Shown: positions 5,563 to 33,223 of the stretch, one piece after another
Layout: the number at the start of each line of letters is the position of its first letter
Position numbering within the stretch: the first letter of the stretch is position 1
From: Gammaproteobacteria bacterium
Lineage (GTDB): Bacteria > Pseudomonadota > Gammaproteobacteria > Arenicellales > Spongiicolonaceae
Length of the DNA: 33,337 nt
Assembly: GCA_028817275.1 (NCBI GenBank)
Contig: JAPPPZ010000139.1
Coordinates: 1-33,337 of the forward strand
Reading direction: 5' to 3'
Translations under genes and position numbers: made by a program
Notes under the pieces: model-generated
Database searches by the model: none
Seen by the model: only the letters and a program-made list of their open reading frames with translations
What the model was told of the DNA's origin: nothing

Positions 5563-5626
5563 GGAAAGCGACGGTGTGGACTCCGGAAACGGTGGCTGCG
5601 ACTCCGGGAATGATGGCGGTGACTCC
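5563..5626 (-). repeat. Imperfect 21-bp tandem repeats (3 units)
   Basis: Between the synthase stop and the exporter ATG are three consecutive units at 5563-5584, 5585-5605 and 5606-5626. Read on the minus strand each begins GGAGTC and ends near CACCGTTTCC or a variant. The same unit recurs as a longer array at 15849-16008 on the plus strand. Period 21-22 bp, with roughly two thirds identity between neighbours by eye. Confidence 0.7.
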
Positions 5627-16641: not shown

Positions 16642-17910
16642 TTACCTCAGCACTCCCGGCAGCCAGGTCGCCGCCGCCGGAAAGGCTATCATCAGCAGGC
16701 CGTAAACAATCCCCAGCGCGACGAAAGTGGGGACTTCGCGGAAAGCCTGGTCGGCGCCTTCACCGATGACGCCGGCCGAGGTGTAGATGCCGACGCACAC
16801 CGGCGGGGTGATCATGCCGATGCCGGCGAAGGCGACGAATATTACGTACAGGTTGAGCAGGTCAAGGCCCAGGCTTGCGCAAATCGCGGCGAACACCGGC
16901 ACCGTCAGGTAGAACACCGGCACAATCTCGACGAAAGTGCCGAGGATTAAACAAATCACCGCGACCATGATCCAGAACATCAGCGGCGTCACGCCGAAGG
17001 CGGTGAAGTAGGCGATGATTTCCTGTGGCAGGCGGGTGTAGGTGAGCACCACCGACAGGAACGTGGCCATGGCGATGATGGAAAAAATGGCGGCGGTGAT
17101 GGTTGCGGTGCGGCACAGTGATTCCAGCAGCCCGCGCAACGTCAACTCGCGGTGCACACAGGCGCCGATGAGCATTGCCCACACTCCGGCCACCGCCGCG
17201 GTTTCCGACGGCGTCATCAGCCCGCTGTAGATGCCGCCTAAAATGACCACCGGGGTGACCAGCGCCGGCGCCGCCCGCCATGCGGCGCGCACGACCTCGC
17301 TTGTTGCAGCGCGGCGGCCGGCCGGCATGCTGCGGCAGCGCCACACCACCAGCAGCACCAGCATCAGCAGCAGCGCGATTCCGGGCAGCACGCCGGCGGC
17401 AAAAGTGTGCGACACCGGCACGCTGGTCAGCGCGCTGAACAGGATGGCGGCGTTGGACGGCGGGATCAGCGCCTCCAGCAGGCCGGCCGAGGCGGCGAGC
17501 ACGATGACGAACGGTTTCGGGTAGCCCTGCTCGATCATCTTCGGCATCATGATGGTGCCCACGGCGGTGATGGCGGCGAGAATGGAGCCGCAGAAAGCGG
17601 CGAAGAACCCCATGGCGATGGCCATGGCGATGCCCAGCCCGCCGGGCCAGTGCCCCACCAGCGCCACCGCCAGGTTGACCAGCCGCGCCGCCATGCCGCC
17701 GCGCAGCATCACCATGCCGGCAAAAATAAACAGCGGCACCGCCACCAGCACGTGCTTGGTGACGGCGCCGAAGGCGACCTGGATTAAAGTTGACCACGGC
17801 AGGTTCAGGGTGAGGATTGCCGAGGCCGCGCCGCCAATTCCGAACACCAGAAAAATCGGCAGCGACATAAACAGCAGCGCCGCCGCGACGATGACGGTGG
17901 CGGTGTTCAT
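16642..17910 (-). CDS. dctM: TRAP transporter large permease DctM (second system)
   Basis: The 422-residue inner-membrane permease has about 12 hydrophobic segments. DctM-type blocks include AAFCGSILAAITAVGTIMMP, GLLEALIPPSNAAILFS, PSETAAVAGVWAMLIG and GIGMITPPVCVGIYTSAG near the end. It is clearly diverged from the DctM at 14543, so the two systems probably carry different substrates. Its ATG overlaps the dctQ stop by 4 bp (ATGA at 17907-17910). It is the last gene of the long minus-strand cluster and converges with the lipoprotein gene 40 bp away; no good terminator is visible between them. Confidence 0.92.
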   Translation of the reverse strand: MNTATVIVAAALLFMSLPIFLVFGIGGAASAILTLNLPWSTLIQVAFGAVTKHVLVAVPLFIFAGMVMLRGGMAARLVNLAVALVGHWPGGLGIAMAIAMGFFAAFCGSILAAITAVGTIMMPKMIEQGYPKPFVIVLAASAGLLEALIPPSNAAILFSALTSVPVSHTFAAGVLPGIALLLMLVLLVVWRCRSMPAGRRAATSEVVRAAWRAAPALVTPVVILGGIYSGLMTPSETAAVAGVWAMLIGACVHRELTLRGLLESLCRTATITAAIFSIIAMATFLSVVLTYTRLPQEIIAYFTAFGVTPLMFWIMVAVICLILGTFVEIVPVFYLTVPVFAAICASLGLDLLNLYVIFVAFAGIGMITPPVCVGIYTSAGVIGEGADQAFREVPTFVALGIVYGLLMIAFPAAATWLPGVLR

Positions 17911-19556: not shown

Positions 19557-19904
19557 TTACCAGCCCGACCACCAGACCGCATAACTGTGGGGCGACAGCA
19601 TGACGGGAATGTGGCAGTGCTGGTCGGCATCGGTGACGGCAAAGCGAAAGACGATTTCGGAAACCATGCGCCGGCCATCCGCCGCCGCTCCATGGGCGGT
19701 GAAGTATTCGCCGACTTTGAGCACCATTTCATAGCGGCCGGCGCCGGCTTGCAATTGTTCACTGAGGCGGCCGTGCCCGTCGGTCACCGTTTCCAGCGCC
19801 AAACAGCGCTCGCCGCCGGCGGCGACCCGGTAAATCTCGACCGCAACGCCGCCGGCATGGCCGCCGTTGACGCAGTCAAGAACGTGGGAGGTGACCAGCG
19901 CCAT
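19557..19904 (-). CDS. Transthyretin-like / 5-hydroxyisourate hydrolase family protein lacking the YRGS motif
   Basis: The 115-residue protein aligns with 5-hydroxyisourate hydrolases: H7 in TSHVLDCVNG, the TDGHGRL segment with R46, and H98 in QHCHIPVMLSPHSY correspond to catalytic His, Arg and His of the family. The hallmark C-terminal tetrapeptide YRGS is absent: the protein ends VWWSGW, so the family serine and the arginine before it are replaced. It may therefore be a divergent hydrolase acting on a different substrate, or not an HIU hydrolase at all. No other urate-pathway gene is in the window; instead it sits 4 bp downstream of a TPP enzyme in a 2-hydroxyacid-type cluster. The ATG at 19904 gives a full-length family N-terminus. 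Confidence 0.75.
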   Translation of the reverse strand: MALVTSHVLDCVNGGHAGGVAVEIYRVAAGGERCLALETVTDGHGRLSEQLQAGAGRYEMVLKVGEYFTAHGAAADGRRMVSEIVFRFAVTDADQHCHIPVMLSPHSYAVWWSGW

Positions 19905-27747: not shown

Positions 27748-28401
27748 ATGCCGCTCAGCGAAGCCGACACCCGCGCCAAACTCATCACGCCCGCGCTGCA
27801 CCGGCGCGGGTGGGGGGAGGAGCATATCCGCCGCGAGCAGACGCGCGGGGCGGTTGAACTGGTGGGCAGAACGGCGCGCCGGCGGCGGCGCGGGCGCACC
27901 GATTATGTGCTGCGCATGAAAGTCCGGGGCGGCGGGCAGCCGGTGGCGGTGGCGCTGCTCGAGGCGAAGAAGGAAAGCGAATTGCCGGGCCATGGACTGG
28001 AGCAGGCGAAGAAATACTGCGCGCTGTTTCATGTGCGGTTTGCGTTCTCGTCCAACGGGCATCAGTTCGTGGAATACGACCACTCCACCGGCAAGACCGG
28101 CAAAGCGAAGCCCATGGAGCAATTCCCCCGCCCGGAAGCGCTGCGCCGCCGTTATGAAGCGGGCCTGGATTTCAGTTTGAGCGACGCCGCGGCCAAACCG
28201 TTGCTGAATGCCCTACGCCGGCGGCGAGGGCACCCGGCGTTATTACCAGGACGCCGCCATCCGCGCCGCGCTGGAAAAAATCGCGCGTTGCGAAAAGCAG
28301 GGCGAAGCCAAACGCCTTCTGCTCAGCCTGGCCACCGGCACCGGCAAAACCTTCATCGCCGTGAATTTGTTGAAGCGCATCGCCGACGCCGGGCAACTTA
28401 A
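27748..28401 (+). CDS. hsdR: HsdR N-terminal part (type I restriction nuclease domain), frameshifted
   Basis: The first ~153 residues are the N-terminal nuclease domain of a type I restriction subunit: SEADTRAKLITPALHRRGW at the start and the PD-(D/E)xK site with D52 in TDYVL and E72-A-K74 in ALLEAKKE, followed by the EQAKKY motif. From about 28207 this frame becomes meaningless (RRRRGHPALLPGRR) while the +1 frame continues the protein at MPYAGGEGTRRYYQDAAI. Removing one base around CTGAATGCC (28204-28212) would fuse the two into one ~785-residue HsdR. There is no homopolymer at the junction. The end at 28401 is therefore artefactual. The ATG at 27748 lies 10 bp after merR. Confidence 0.8.
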   Translation: MPLSEADTRAKLITPALHRRGWGEEHIRREQTRGAVELVGRTARRRRRGRTDYVLRMKVRGGGQPVAVALLEAKKESELPGHGLEQAKKYCALFHVRFAFSSNGHQFVEYDHSTGKTGKAKPMEQFPRPEALRRRYEAGLDFSLSDAAAKPLLNALRRRRGHPALLPGRRHPRRAGKNRALRKAGRSQTPSAQPGHRHRQNLHRREFVEAHRRRRAT

Positions 28402-30103
28402 GCGCGCATTGTTTGTCTGCGACCGCGACGAATTGCGCGCCCAAGCCAACGCCGCCTTCAACAATGTGTTCGGCGCCGACGCGGCGATTGCCGAGCGCGA
28501 CACCGACGGCGGCAACGCGGCCCGCAACGCCCGCGTGCATATCGCCACCTACCAGACCCTCGGCGTGGACTTTGATGACGGCGATGCGAGTTTTCTTTCC
28601 AAACACTACCCGCCCGACCATTTCAGCCACATCGTCATCGACGAATGCCACCGTTCGGCGTGGAACAAGTGGTCGCAGGTGCTGACGCGCAACCCAAACG
28701 CGGCGCATATCGGCCTCACCGCCACCCCGCGCATCGTCACCGGGCGCGGCGACGACGCGCAACTGGACGCGGAAATCACCCGCAACAATCTGGACTATTT
28801 CGGCGCGCCGGTGTACGAATACGGCATCACCCAGGGCACCGAAGACGGCTACCTGGCCGCCTGCGTCATTCGCAAAAAGCGCGTCAATTTGGATGCGCGG
28901 GACATCACCCGCCCGGAAATCATCGCGCGCGAGCCGCGCCATGCGGGAACCGGCCGCCGCCTCAGCGCAGAGGAAGTCAAAGAGTGGTACAACCGCTACC
29001 GCTACGACGACATTCTCATGCTGCCCGACCGGGTGCGGGAAATGTGCGCCGACTTTTTCAACGCCCTGCTGGAAAGCGGCGGCGGCCCGGAACAAAAGAG
29101 CATCATTTTCTGCGTGCGCGATTCGCACGCCGATGCGGTGGCCGCGGCAATGAACAACTTATACGCCGATTGGTGCGGGCAAAACCGCCGCGCGCGCAAA
29201 GCGACTTACGCTTTCAAATGCACCGCCGCCGCCGACGGCAACCGCGAACTGCCCGACTTGCGCGCGGCAAGCAACCACCACTTCATCGCCGCCACCGTCG
29301 ACCTGCTGAGCACCGGCGTGGATGTGCCGTGCGTGAACAACATCGCGTTCTTCCGCTACCTGCGCTCGCCCATCAGTTTGTACCAGATGCTCGGCCGCGG
29401 CACGCGCATCGACGAAGCCAGCGGCAAGTTGATGTTCACCGTCCACGACTACACCGACGCCACCGACCTGCTCGGCCGCGATTTGGCAACGCCGCCGCCA
29501 AGGCAGTCGGCCGGTGGCGGCGGCGGCGATGCGCCGGTCACCGTGTCGGTGGAGGATTTTGAAGTGCATGTCGCCGACACCGGCAGTTATGTCATGGCGC
29601 GGGAAAACGGCCGCGAGACGCGCATCCCGATGGACGAGTACTTGCGCCGTTTCGCCGCGCGCCTGATTGCGGAAGCGCCCACCGTGGACGAACTGCGCCG
29701 CCGCTGGGTGGCGCCGGCGGCGCGCCAGCAGTTGCTGGAAACCCTGCGCGCGGTCGGCTGCTCGGCGGCGGTGGTGCAACTGTTGCGGCAGATGGAGGAC
29801 TACGACCTCTACGACATCCTCGCCGACCTCGGCTTCGGCCTGTCGCCCCGCACCCGCCGCGAGCGCGCCGGCGCCTTCACCTACAAAAACCAGCCGTGGC
29901 TGGCCAACCTGCCGCCGCAAACCGCCGCCGCCGTGCGCGCCATTGTCGGCCAGTTCGAAAAAGGCGGCACCGACGAGTTGGAAAACCAGCGCATCTTCCA
30001 AACCCCGGCCGTGGCCGCGGCCGGCGGAATGGCGGCGTTGCGCGCCGGCGGCGAGCCGGGGCGGCTGCTGGCGGAGGCGAAAAGGCGGGTTTTTGCGGCT
30101 TGA
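28208..30103 (+). CDS. hsdR: HsdR motor and C-terminal part (DEAD-like translocase of type I restriction enzyme)
   Basis: The 631-residue frame holds the helicase-like motor: Walker A LATGTGKT (41-48), DECHRS (145-150), GLTATPR (169-175) and QMLGRGTRIDE (motif VI). A C-terminal domain ends in the family-typical K-R-x-F-A-A (AKRRVFAA). The motor pulls DNA through the complex before cleavage. The nuclease domain is encoded in another frame upstream, so as written this is either half of a frameshifted hsdR or, if translated from the ATG at 28208, a nuclease-less translocase. The DNA at its 3' end is one copy of the direct repeat that flanks the next two genes. Confidence 0.88.
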   Translation: MPYAGGEGTRRYYQDAAIRAALEKIARCEKQGEAKRLLLSLATGTGKTFIAVNLLKRIADAGQLKRALFVCDRDELRAQANAAFNNVFGADAAIAERDTDGGNAARNARVHIATYQTLGVDFDDGDASFLSKHYPPDHFSHIVIDECHRSAWNKWSQVLTRNPNAAHIGLTATPRIVTGRGDDAQLDAEITRNNLDYFGAPVYEYGITQGTEDGYLAACVIRKKRVNLDARDITRPEIIAREPRHAGTGRRLSAEEVKEWYNRYRYDDILMLPDRVREMCADFFNALLESGGGPEQKSIIFCVRDSHADAVAAAMNNLYADWCGQNRRARKATYAFKCTAAADGNRELPDLRAASNHHFIAATVDLLSTGVDVPCVNNIAFFRYLRSPISLYQMLGRGTRIDEASGKLMFTVHDYTDATDLLGRDLATPPPRQSAGGGGGDAPVTVSVEDFEVHVADTGSYVMARENGRETRIPMDEYLRRFAARLIAEAPTVDELRRRWVAPAARQQLLETLRAVGCSAAVVQLLRQMEDYDLYDILADLGFGLSPRTRRERAGAFTYKNQPWLANLPPQTAAAVRAIVGQFEKGGTDELENQRIFQTPAVAAAGGMAALRAGGEPGRLLAEAKRRVFAA

Positions 30104-30116
30104 AATTGGTATACTG
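30092..30116 (+). repeat. Direct repeat copy 1 (end of hsdR plus promoter)
   Basis: The sequence TTTGCGGCTTGAAA-TTGGTATACTG covers the last three codons and stop of hsdR and a -10 box. Copy 2 at 30841-30867 differs by a 2-nt insertion and one A/G change. The two copies bracket exactly the genes at 30122 and 30598. Confidence 0.75.
30110..30115 (+). promoter_or_regulatory. Predicted -10 box of a leaderless promoter
   Basis: TATACT is followed by GAACGA (6 nt) and the ATG at 30122. No Shine-Dalgarno exists. The box is within direct repeat copy 1. Confidence 0.5.
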
Positions 30117-30121
30117 AACGA

Positions 30122-30601
30122 ATGTCAACCGAACGCAAAAACACCGTCGCCGAACAGGCCGCCCTCGCCTATTCCGCCGAGCCGCGGGATTTGGACGAGT
30201 CGGCGGCTTTTGAAGAAATCTTTCTGTCTTTAAGGCACCAGGGCCTTGGCGAGTGTGCCGAGTGTCTGGCTTATCTGCGCTCAACTGAGGATATGGAAGA
30301 GGACGACGCGCCCCTTTCGCTGGAATCCGCCCGGGGGTTTGTTAAATTTATGAAAGACTTTCCGGATTTGGGAGAGCCTTTACTCGGACTTTTTTCGGGG
30401 GGGACTCTTTCCGCGGGATGGCGGGTTGCAGACAATAAACACCTGCTGGTTGAGCCGCTGGATGGCAAAAATGCGGCTTTCGCGTTTATTGGCCCGTCGG
30501 ACCAGCCCGGTGAAAAATCCCGCCTGAACGGCCGAGGCACAATTGCCGAAATTATTCATACCTTGCGGGAGCACGGCGTCGACAAGTGGAGAGATGCGTG
30601 A
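30122..30601 (+). CDS. Uncharacterised 159-residue protein in the type I RM locus
   Basis: I do not recognise a named family with confidence. The protein is acidic and soluble, with no signal peptide or membrane segment. The first half is helical and acid-rich (AAFEEIFLSLRHQGLGECAE, then LRSTEDMEEDDAPLS). The second half has LESARGFVKFMKDFPDLGEPLLGLFSGGTLSAGWRV, a 'pro-x-leu ... G-x-L-x-x-x-W' pattern seen in small hypothetical proteins that accompany defence loci, then two probable beta strands (LLVEPLDG, AAFAFIGPSD). It is translated with the next gene through a 4-bp GTGA overlap, so the two products probably work together. A toxin/antitoxin pair, or an accessory of the restriction system, is possible but unproven. 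Confidence 0.75.
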   Translation: MSTERKNTVAEQAALAYSAEPRDLDESAAFEEIFLSLRHQGLGECAECLAYLRSTEDMEEDDAPLSLESARGFVKFMKDFPDLGEPLLGLFSGGTLSAGWRVADNKHLLVEPLDGKNAAFAFIGPSDQPGEKSRLNGRGTIAEIIHTLREHGVDKWRDA

Positions 30602-30852
30602 AAACCCCTAAAAATATTCCTGATTCCAATCATGTTTTACGGTATTGCAAACCCAGAACGGTAAAAGGCGGAAGGATCGCCGAGTCTGCTTTTGAGTTTC
30701 GCCCGGGCGAAGAATTCCTTTCTGTCAATTGGGCGGAATACTTCGGGGCGGATATCACGGTAAACGCCCAAGTGGAAAAAGTGCGGGAGGATATGAGCAA
30801 ATCGTTCAAACTCAGCGCCAACGGGCGGTTTGCCAAGGTGTTTGCGGCTTGA
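30598..30852 (+). CDS. Uncharacterised 84-residue protein, coupled to the preceding gene
   Basis: The start is taken as the GTG at 30598, which overlaps the previous stop by 4 bp (GTGA); an upstream in-frame start at 30586 would add four residues. The product begins KTPKNIPDSNHVLRYCKPRT and has the segment AFEFRPGEEFLSVNWAEYFG, a pattern I associate with small hypothetical partners of the preceding type of protein, although I cannot name the family. It is basic near the C-terminus (KSFKLSANGRFAKVFAA) and has no membrane segment. Codon and base composition are less GC-rich than the core genes. The final codons are part of direct repeat copy 2, so its C-terminal KVFAA matches the end of HsdR. 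Confidence 0.7.
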   Translation: MKTPKNIPDSNHVLRYCKPRTVKGGRIAESAFEFRPGEEFLSVNWAEYFGADITVNAQVEKVREDMSKSFKLSANGRFAKVFAA

Positions 30853-30867
30853 AAATTTGGTATGCTG
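30841..30867 (+). repeat. Direct repeat copy 2 (end of the 84-residue gene plus promoter)
   Basis: TTTGCGGCTTGAAAATTTGG is followed by TATGCTG. It repeats 30092-30116 with a 2-nt insertion and one substitution, again joining an FAA-stop gene end to a -10 box. Confidence 0.75.
30861..30866 (+). promoter_or_regulatory. Predicted -10 box of the XRE-ImmA gene
   Basis: TATGCT lies within direct repeat copy 2, 33 nt before the ATG at 30900. The leader would be about 27 nt, A-rich just before the start, and without a Shine-Dalgarno. Autorepression by the encoded XRE domain would be typical. Confidence 0.4.
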
Positions 30868-30899: not shown

Positions 30900-32090
30900 A
30901 TGACCCAACAAATGCTTATTAACCCGGAAATCGTGGACTGGGCGCAGGCGCGCGCCGGTTTGACTGTGGATGGCCTGGCGAAAAAAATGGGCGTTGGGCC
31001 GGACCGTCTCATGCAGTGGAAAACCGGCAGGGAGGCCATGACTTTCAAGCAGGTGAAAAAACTGGCGGAGAAGACATATACCCCGCTCGGGTACCTGTTC
31101 GCCGAAAAACCGCCGGAGGAATCTCTGCCTGTTCCCGACTTTCGCACTTTTGGCGACCGCGACTCCGCCCGCGCAAACCCCAGCGTGGATTTGCTGGACA
31201 CGATATACGGCATGCAGCGCCGCCAGAACTGGTTTCGCGATTACCTCGTTGAAATCGGCGCTGCTCCCCTGCCTTTTACGCAGCGCGATACGCGGCGGCA
31301 AAATGTCCCGGAAGTTGCGGCGTCCATACGGGAACTTCTTCAAGTGGAAAAAAACCAAGGCATCGCCGAACCTTTCTCCGGCAGGGAAGCGGCGATGCGC
31401 GGACTGCTCGAATCCGTTGGCGACAAGACCGGCATTCTCATCATGCGCAACGGCGTGGTCGGCAACAATACCAGCCGCCCGCTCAATGTAAAAGAATTTC
31501 GCGGGTTTGCGTTGTATGACGAATACGCGCCGTTGATATTTATCAACGGCAAGGATGCAAAAGCCGCCCAGATTTTTACGCTGGCGCATGAGTTGGCGCA
31601 CATTTACCTTGGGGAAGGCGGGGTTTCCAATCTGGATTTCGGCACCATGGACAAAGCGGACAAATTGGAAAAATTCTGCAACGCGGTGACCGCCGAACTG
31701 CTGGTGCCGGTTAAACCTTTTCTTTTGCGCTGGGAAAAAGGAAAGACTCCCGGACGGCAAATCGCCGCGATTGGCAAAAAATTAAATGTCAGCGGTTTGG
31801 TTGTTGCGCGGTGCGCGCTGGACAACAAACTCGTGAGCCGCGACTGGTACTGGGATTTCTACAAGGCGCAGGAAAAGCGCTCCCGCGAAGGCGCCGATGC
31901 CGCTGATTCCAAAAAGGGCGGAGGCGGAAATTTCTACGCCGCCTATTTTCACCGCGCCAACCGCCGTTTTGCTGCGGCTGTGGTCGTGTCCGCGCTTGAA
32001 GGCCGGTTGTCTTACCGCGACGCGCACAACCTTTTGGGTGTGCGCAAAACGGAAACATTCAACAAAATCGCCAAACAACTCGGTTATTGA
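30900..32090 (+). CDS. XRE-family HTH regulator fused to ImmA/IrrE metallopeptidase
   Basis: The 396-residue protein starts with an XRE helix-turn-helix (about 10-65: RAGLTVDGLAKKMGVGPDRLMQWKTG split across two helices). A linker begins with ESLPVPDFRTF. The ImmA/IrrE zinc protease domain has HELAH (230-234) and a downstream acidic ligand candidate E257 in EKFCNAVTAELLVP. The C-terminal part (about 300-396) resembles the tail of COG2856 proteins. Such proteins act as antitoxins or repressors or cleave a repressor. The ATG at 30900 has no Shine-Dalgarno. The following PIN gene starts inside its stop codon (TTGA overlap), the usual layout of this protease with a DUF4411-type PIN protein; I infer a toxin-antitoxin-like pair. 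Confidence 0.9.
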   Translation: MTQQMLINPEIVDWAQARAGLTVDGLAKKMGVGPDRLMQWKTGREAMTFKQVKKLAEKTYTPLGYLFAEKPPEESLPVPDFRTFGDRDSARANPSVDLLDTIYGMQRRQNWFRDYLVEIGAAPLPFTQRDTRRQNVPEVAASIRELLQVEKNQGIAEPFSGREAAMRGLLESVGDKTGILIMRNGVVGNNTSRPLNVKEFRGFALYDEYAPLIFINGKDAKAAQIFTLAHELAHIYLGEGGVSNLDFGTMDKADKLEKFCNAVTAELLVPVKPFLLRWEKGKTPGRQIAAIGKKLNVSGLVVARCALDNKLVSRDWYWDFYKAQEKRSREGADAADSKKGGGGNFYAAYFHRANRRFAAAVVVSALEGRLSYRDAHNLLGVRKTETFNKIAKQLGY

Positions 32091-32584
32091 TTGTGCCTCA
32101 CCTGCTGGACACCAACACGCTCATCAGCGCGCACAGGCAATACTACCCTTTTGATTTTTGCCCGGGGTTTTGGACCTGGCTGGAACAAAAGCACAAGCAA
32201 AAACGCATATTCAGCGTTGATGCCGTTTATGTGGAATTGCAACCGGGCGGTGATAAACTCTCCCGATGGGCGAAAACCATGAACCGGCGGGGATTTTTTC
32301 TCAATGCCGGCAAGGCGGATATTACCCCGGCCATCACCAGGTTAACCCAATGGGTCAATGCGTCCGACTTCACGCCGGAGGCCATTCATGAACTTAATGA
32401 TTCAGCCGACCTGCTCCTGATCGCTTTCGCAAAGACGCACGGTTATACAGTGATAACAGACGAAAAATCCGAACCCCATAGGAAAAACAAAGTCAAAATC
32501 CCGGACGCCTGCAGTGCGCTTCAATTGCAATGCATCAATCTTTTCGACCTGATGCGGGCGGAAGGGATTCGACTTGTTGTTTAA
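32087..32584 (+). CDS. DUF4411-like PIN-domain protein (putative RNase toxin)
   Basis: The ~165-residue protein matches the DUF4411 pattern: HLLDTNTLISAHRQYYPFDF at the N-terminus (D8 begins the PIN acidic cluster), PGFWTWLE, VDAVYVELQPGGDKLSRWAK with the second acidic residue, SADLLLIAFAKTHGYTVITDE with the third and fourth, and KIPDACSALQLQCIN. PIN proteins are Mg2+-dependent ribonucleases, often toxins. The start overlaps the XRE-ImmA stop (TTG at 32087; GTG at 32093 is the alternative), so synthesis is coupled to the likely antitoxin. The ORF ends 6 bp before hsdS. All usual acidic residues seem present, so activity is expected. Confidence 0.85.
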   Translation: MIVPHLLDTNTLISAHRQYYPFDFCPGFWTWLEQKHKQKRIFSVDAVYVELQPGGDKLSRWAKTMNRRGFFLNAGKADITPAITRLTQWVNASDFTPEAIHELNDSADLLLIAFAKTHGYTVITDEKSEPHRKNKVKIPDACSALQLQCINLFDLMRAEGIRLVV

Positions 32585-32590
32585 ATAACA

Positions 32591-33223
32591 TTGAATAAGC
32601 AGACAGTTAATAAACAACTCCCGCACGATTGGCGGCAAATTGCGCTTGGGGAAATCACCCGCATATTTGCCGGCTCGTCGGCGCCGCAGGGGAAGGATTT
32701 TTTCTCCGAGTCGGGGGCGCCGTTTGTGCGCGTCAGCGATTTGGGCAACTGCAATGCGGCGGGGATTCTTGAAACGACCCGCGACCATCTTTCGCAGCAA
32801 GCGGTTGCCGAATGCCCGCTGGTCAAGGCGCCGAAAGGCGCGGTGCTTTTCCCCAAAAGCGGCGCGGCAATCGCTACCAACCGGCGCGCGGTGCTCGGAA
32901 TGGACGCTTACATCGTGGGGCATCTATTCGCGCTGGTGGCGAACTCCGAAGCGGTCACCATGGAATGGCTTTATTCCGCCATGCGCCAAATCGACATGAT
33001 GGAGCACAGCGATAATGTCGGCTACCCCTCGCTTAAAAAATCGGCGGTGGAAAAAATCACCATCCCCCTCCCGCCCCTTGCCGAGCAGGGGCGAATTGTT
33101 GCCGTGCTGAATCAGAAGATGGCGGCGGTGGAGAAAGCGCGGATAGCCGCCGGAGCCGAATTGGAGGCCATCACCGCCCTGCCCGCGGCCCTGCTGCGGG
33201 AGGCGTTCAGCGGCGCGCTTTGA
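32591..33223 (+). CDS. hsdS: Type I restriction-modification specificity subunit HsdS, single-TRD (half-size)
   Basis: The 210-residue protein has one target recognition domain: LPHDWRQIALGEITRIFAGS at the start, GAPFVRVSDLG, and PKGAVLFPKSGAAIATNRRA, a classic HsdS TRD stretch. One central conserved helix region follows (IPLPPLAEQGRIVAVLNQKM, then an Ala/Glu-rich coiled-coil-like segment AVEKARIAAGAELEAI). Normal HsdS has two TRDs and about 400 residues. Half-size subunits are known to dimerise and recognise symmetric sites, so this may be complete and not truncated: the end LPAALLREAFSGAL is the usual HsdS C-terminus. The start is TTG at 32591 (weak). hsdM follows after 2 bp. Confidence 0.88.
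   Translation: MNKQTVNKQLPHDWRQIALGEITRIFAGSSAPQGKDFFSESGAPFVRVSDLGNCNAAGILETTRDHLSQQAVAECPLVKAPKGAVLFPKSGAAIATNRRAVLGMDAYIVGHLFALVANSEAVTMEWLYSAMRQIDMMEHSDNVGYPSLKKSAVEKITIPLPPLAEQGRIVAVLNQKMAAVEKARIAAGAELEAITALPAALLREAFSGAL

Follow-up and report, generated by a model that had tools for sequence, protein, structure and literature searches.

The question raised by this locus is whether two small genes, lying between the type I restriction gene hsdR and a gene for an ImmA-type protein, form a cassette that can be gained or lost through the direct repeats on either side of them. The stretch of DNA analysed here (hereafter the window, 33,337 nt) is an entire contig (C159) of its genome. A preliminary description had read the two genes as a cassette in a modular slot for defence cargo. 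We compared the genes, the repeats and their surroundings with those of related and unrelated loci, and the results point to a locus in which one of the two genes is broken and the repeats would be traces of older junctions.

Gene content of the restriction locus

All the window features described here are on the forward strand. HsdR carries ResIII/SWI2 helicase and EcoEI_R_C domains, which places the system in type I (EcoEI-like), and HsdS is encoded in the same locus; no hsdM was seen in the part that precedes the contig end at 33337. The main hsdR frame (28208..30103), assigned by profile matches and orthologue comparison, ends in RRVFAA*. An N-terminal frame with an HSDR_N domain (27748..28401; PF04313; REase_I 4.8e-19) was recognised also by tblastn with the HsdR of G324, a genome of the same class and another family. 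The two frames overlap, the split lying at 28190-28215 (near 28205), whereas the G324 orthologue is an intact protein of 789 aa; the frameshift may mark a true pseudogene or an error of assembly.

Behind hsdR follow gene 1 (159 aa, 30122..30601), gene 2 (84 aa, 30598..30852), an HTH + ImmA/IrrE gene (Peptidase_M78; 30900..32090) and a DUF4411 PIN-domain gene (32087..32584) that overlaps the end of the ImmA gene. The last gene encodes an HsdS with one Methylase_S domain (210 aa, 32591..33223). The GC content of the cargo is 0.49-0.56, compared with 0.66 for hsdR.

The ImmA protein is antitoxin-like (RmrA-like; PF06114 5.8e-14, PADLOC RmrA 7.5e-13), and the PIN protein, identified by its domain match, is a putative toxin paired with it. 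The pair recurs in relatives (L044-L051), several times beside type I restriction genes. In two of these loci (L050 and L051), we confirmed that hsdR stands right after the ImmA-PIN pair. ImmA-type antitoxins form a family within the RosmerTA (RmrTA) toxin-antitoxin defence systems (PMC10440598). The window resembles these systems in having an HTH + ImmA protease gene, of the kind expected for the antitoxin, with a separate putative toxin gene next to it; it differs in the partner, which is here the DUF4411 PIN protein, a toxin candidate by its domain.

A gapped direct repeat carries the end of hsdR

Both copies of the repeat reported in the preliminary description, at 30092-30116 and 30841-30867, were confirmed: TTTGCGGCTTGAAA is identical at 14/14 positions and is followed, after a 2-nt indel, by TTGGTAT(A/G)CTG, identical at 10/11. 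The similarity extends 5' by GGTn, from 30088 and 30837, which gives an 18-mer at 94% identity. Thus, the full repeat reads GGTnTTTGCGGCTTGAAA(nn)TTGGTATrCTG, with copy 1 at 30088-30116 and copy 2 at 30837-30867. In both copies, the left half comes from the coding sequence of hsdR. In copy 1, it is the native hsdR 3' end (RRVFAA*, stop at 30103), which runs into the gene 1 promoter; the G324 orthologue, 79% identical, ends alike. In copy 2, hsdR tail sequence precedes the upstream/promoter region of the HTH-ImmA gene.

Exact 14-nt direct repeats are ordinary in this DNA, with eight others, 60-1500 nt apart, in the same window. The repeat stands out by its extension and its cross-genome context, not by bare 14-nt identity. 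The gapped pattern had two matches in the window and none in 100 shuffles, and two matches in the whole 2.0 Mb genome, with none in the controls; no third copy was found in the genome with up to three mismatches allowed. The local alignment of copy 1 with copy 2 scored 41, while the maximum of 3,323 random windows was 22-26.

Two candidate explanations for the motif were tried and rejected. The first was a genome-wide promoter motif: the repeat is uncommon as a promoter both here and in G063, the gammaproteobacterial MAG STY2_bin_1 (samples of 253 and 209 kb, and whole-genome patterns). The second was a dispersed recombination site: when 2 mismatches are allowed, the 20-mer of the hsdR tail is found roughly once in every six genomes among 145 genomes, somewhat more often than the reversed control. 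These occurrences look like chance, and none of them, outside the window, was followed by the promoter half in the 145 genomes.

As regards the promoter half, gene 1 of the window and its two G063 copies (L038 15241 and L038 17653) all have a -10-like TATACT or TATAAC at a distance of exactly 6 nt from the ATG; the probable -10 of the window is TATACT at 30110..30115. This constant spacing of the putative -10 element in three close copies suggests that the gene 1 mRNA is leaderless.

Gene 2 is truncated at the second repeat copy

Gene 1 and gene 2 matched no family of Pfam, NCBIfam or PADLOC. Homologues of gene 2 were found at 51 loci (L096-L146) in many phyla, mostly with gene 1 directly before them and often with a TIGR04255 gene in first position. 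This is an unnamed and widespread gene set, composed of a TIGR04255 gene (or a different first gene of ~215-240 aa), gene 1 and gene 2, and hosted by MAGs of Acidobacteria, Chloroflexi, Bacteroidetes, Proteobacteria, Spirochaetia and others. At some loci (L118, L132), type I restriction genes lie next to the set. In the window, gene 1 is homologous to the second member of the set and gene 2 to the last; the window differs from the set in that the first gene is absent and gene 2 is truncated. Among viral contigs, we found one distant match for gene 2 and none for hsdR.

The preliminary description had treated the end of the 84-residue gene as its natural end. This did not hold: 39 of the 43 homologues extracted, most of them, as the other cargo loci compared, from draft metagenome assemblies, are 125-164 aa long (38 of 141-164 aa and one of 125 aa), and the stop codon of the window gene lies inside copy 2. 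The four exceptions measure 84, 93, 107 and 112 aa (L140, L144, L145 and L146), and such short homologues could mean that a short gene 2 keeps some function.

The closest relative of gene 2 is the first of the two copies in G063 (g2a), a full-length gene of 137 aa, 85-87% identical. The DNA similarity between the window and this G063 contig (C34) ends at window position 30836, just 5' of the hsdR tail sequence GGTGTTTGCGGCTTGA (30837..30852). Gene 2 is homologous to its family over residues 1-80, is cut after residue 80, and takes its last four residues and stop (VFAA*) from the hsdR piece. The C-terminal 40% is lost exactly at copy 2, including H106, which is nearly invariant in the family. 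In the AF2 model of the full-length protein, a single compact domain (pLDDT 95), the cut is predicted to fall in strand 77-82, so that about half of the predicted core fold would be missing, with two helices and three strands gone. Neither this model nor that of gene 1 (pLDDT 84) has a fold match in the PDB at E<=0.001; the predicted fold of gene 1 resembles type III secretion chaperones only weakly (TM 0.3-0.4).

On the basis of the family length, of the full-length gene 2 in G063, and of the lost histidine and fold parts, the proposed cassette includes a gene that is broken and that ends at a stop codon provided by copy 2. What lies between the repeats is, accordingly, not intact cargo.

Different cargo lies behind hsdR in relatives

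A search of the class for hsdR and ImmA orthologues returned only G324 and G422 at 79% identity and G231 at 48%; the G422 contig breaks inside hsdR. The same-genus genome G001 had no hsdR, gene 1, gene 2 or ImmA match above thresholds, and gave no informative locus alignment. In G324, hsdR is followed by ~190 nt, a Fic gene, DUF6978, DUF1828, and then the upstream region and start of an ImmA gene at the contig end. In G231, by reading of the locus, an hsdS-like gene comes directly after hsdR. On a Carboxydocella plasmid, hsdS lies immediately 3' of hsdR and the gap is empty, and on a Meiothermus plasmid (L206 7966-13646) TnpB and a PDDEXK nuclease stand between hsdR and hsdS. The opposite strand of the same Meiothermus locus carries a tyrosine recombinase gene, which overlaps the hsdM gene at its end. 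The hsdR products end in KETKRRVFAA* in G324, RETKERMFVA* in Carboxydocella and RQTKERMFEA* in Meiothermus.

In G063, an hsdR-tail remnant is followed by the hsdR-Fic intergenic region (77% identical to that of G324 over 279 nt), an internally deleted Fic gene, the first copy of gene 1 (g1a) and the full-length g2a, across contigs C96 and C34, which overlap by 55 nt. A second pair, g1b-g2b, precedes an hsdS fragment of which 161 bp are 94% identical to the hsdS of the window. With two diverged gene 1-gene 2 pairs, an hsdS fragment, an hsdR-tail remnant and a deleted Fic (L038 15000-17687 and L037), the G063 island is a decaying defence island.

The same place is thus occupied by different cargo in different relatives. 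The modular slot of the preliminary description agrees with this, as different genes stand behind hsdR and ImmA follows different cargo in G324; a clean cassette did not emerge from the comparison. In the window, hsdR meets the gene 1 promoter through a single repeat, while the relatives have Fic between two repeat-like sequences. The hsdR-gene 1 junction of the window therefore resembles the product of a loss of Fic between repeats.

Sequences resembling the hsdR tail at cargo boundaries

The tail in copy 2 matches the hsdR tail of G324 at 16/16 positions and the window's own hsdR tail at 15/16. The gene end in copy 2 is a displaced hsdR tail and not a natural one.

We then scanned the last 58 nt of hsdR along each island. 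In each island scanned, a top or near-top match fell at a cargo boundary: at 30837 in the window; at 5601-5614 in G324, where GGCGGGTTTTTGCG lies just 3' of the Fic stop and has a homologue in G063; at 17614 in G063 C96, just after the Fic remnant and before g1a; and at 19777-19817 in G063 C86. The post-Fic sites of G324 and G063 are homologous and were counted once. The tail-like sequences of these two genomes are short (14-40 nt), with p ~0.0006-0.01 per site for sites chosen after the pattern was seen, and equally good matches occur elsewhere in some regions (e.g., G063 C34). The junctions do not all share the same core: the tail-like sequences diverge, and the ImmA junction of G324 carries no repeat. 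Overall, this is moderate evidence that sequence resembling the hsdR tail recurs at cargo boundaries.

The C86 site concerns the ImmA gene of G063 (84% DNA identity), which has a decayed hsdR-tail-like sequence on its 5' side with no hsdR there, the preceding gene being FRG-TPR. The ImmA upstream region on this contig begins, as in the window, with a sequence of the TTATGCTGGAAACGC type. The likeness to the tail has p 0.001-0.01 locally and 0.017-0.09 over ~100 nt, and the element points, with moderate strength, to an older hsdR-ImmA neighbourhood.

Origin of the repeats

The explanation that we favour, with little more than even confidence, is that the type I restriction locus contains a hotspot for cargo, reshuffled by recombination at short similarities, many of them within the hsdR end. 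Copy 2 would be a scar left by an earlier junction of hsdR with ImmA, and gene 2 would have been truncated on joining. We infer the order of events and the recombination route as follows. The gap between hsdR and hsdS of an EcoEI-like locus would have served as a cargo slot, and in an older arrangement the ImmA-PIN pair would have stood directly behind hsdR, leaving copy 2 as its scar. Later, other cargo, namely Fic in relatives and then gene 1 and gene 2, would have been placed between hsdR and ImmA. In the lineage of the window, Fic would have been lost, joining hsdR to the gene 1 promoter through one repeat, and the 3' 40% of gene 2 would have been deleted on joining, at a short patch of similarity, the displaced hsdR tail. 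The repeats would then record several rounds of short-homology (illegitimate or homeologous) recombination among island haplotypes that have the hsdR end in common.

A rather unlikely alternative is that, in these Gammaproteobacteria, small defence cassettes have repeatedly been acquired at the 3' end of hsdR, and that every acquisition restored hsdR and left a copy of its tail, with the order hsdR-Fic-g1-g2-ImmA-PIN-hsdS. In a more specific version, possible but unlikely, the hsdR end would be an attachment site for site-specific integration, and the displaced tails would separate stacked cassettes. This would fit with the tail or tail-like sequence that, in three genomes, stands on the 5' side of Fic, gene 1 and ImmA and also on the 3' side of Fic, and with the hsdR end regenerated in the window and in G324. 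It fits less well with the divergence of the tail-like copies and with a motif that is not dispersed elsewhere; moreover, no recombinase was recognised among the cargo genes examined, and an insertion would leave the truncated gene 2 unexplained. Staphylococcal SCC elements integrate at the 3' end of rlmH, their direct repeats contain the gene end, and the cassettes can stack. The window is similar to such elements in its direct repeats containing a gene end and in the possible stacking of several cassettes; it differs from them in the lack of a recognised recombinase, in the imprecise junctions and in that no inverted repeats were shown.

The reading of the preliminary description, in which gene 1 and gene 2 are a functional cassette cleanly gained or lost by homologous recombination between the direct repeats of an active modular slot, is also unlikely. 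Two direct repeats do stand at the right places, and the content of the slot varies between relatives. An event of this kind would be the deletion of Fic between two sequences that resemble the tail. On paper, recombination between the repeats would leave hsdR and the ImmA promoter intact, as had been proposed. Against this reading, gene 2 is truncated exactly at copy 2. An identity of 16-18 nt is short for RecA-mediated recombination. The suggested comparison of orthologous loci did reveal other cargo in the slot, but no empty site of the form hsdR-TTTGCGGCTTGAAAATTTGGTATGCTG-ImmA, with one repeat, in the genomes searched, which included two close hsdR orthologues, one of them on a contig broken inside hsdR; the repeat is absent also from the ImmA junction of G324.

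We regard as improbable a local duplication or gene conversion, by which the hsdR tail and promoter of copy 1 would have been copied into gene 2, truncating it and giving ImmA its promoter. It would account for the likeness of both repeat halves within the window, where the score of 41 exceeds the background maximum of 26. It would also agree with the promoter halves of gene 1 and ImmA, which are alike in both the window and G063 (p ~0.003-0.006, 341 upstream regions); with gene 1 as the query, none of the 341 sampled upstream regions reached the gene 1-ImmA score. These promoter halves may share descent or may only be of the same type. Against a copy made within the window, the copy 2 tail fits the hsdR of G324 better than the window's own, and the ImmA upstream region of G063 already has the orthologous, decayed element on C86 with different flanks.

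Finally, a coincidence of a common protein end (VFAA*) with a common extended -10 promoter, with no shared history, is very improbable: near matches of the VFAA* type do occur in other genomes at low, chance-like rates, and this GC-rich genome has many short exact direct repeats, but the gene 2 family has no VFAA end, the promoter score stands above all the upstream regions sampled when gene 1 is the query, and the genome contains the combined repeat nowhere else.

Implications for type I restriction loci

Type I loci are known to gain extra defence genes, and the route by which these arrive is rarely visible. Accessory genes inside them are documented, as prrC in ecoprrI (PMC12707154), and in Campylobacter jejuni M1 the locus numbers of rloA-rloB fall between hsdR and hsdS (PMC2928727). 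The locus studied here is similar to these in carrying extra defence-like genes inside the hsd locus; it differs in the nature of the cargo, gene 1-gene 2 and ImmA-PIN, and in the displaced hsdR tails at the junctions. No description of such displaced tails was found in the titles and passages of the literature available to us.

Genes flanked by repeats can be misleading when they are read as intact cassettes: at this locus, only a broken piece remains of one of the two. Under the scenario that we favour, of a cargo hotspot reshuffled by short-homology recombination, fragments of the hsdR end displaced to cargo boundaries would leave a trace from which the joining, exchange and decay of cargo can be read.
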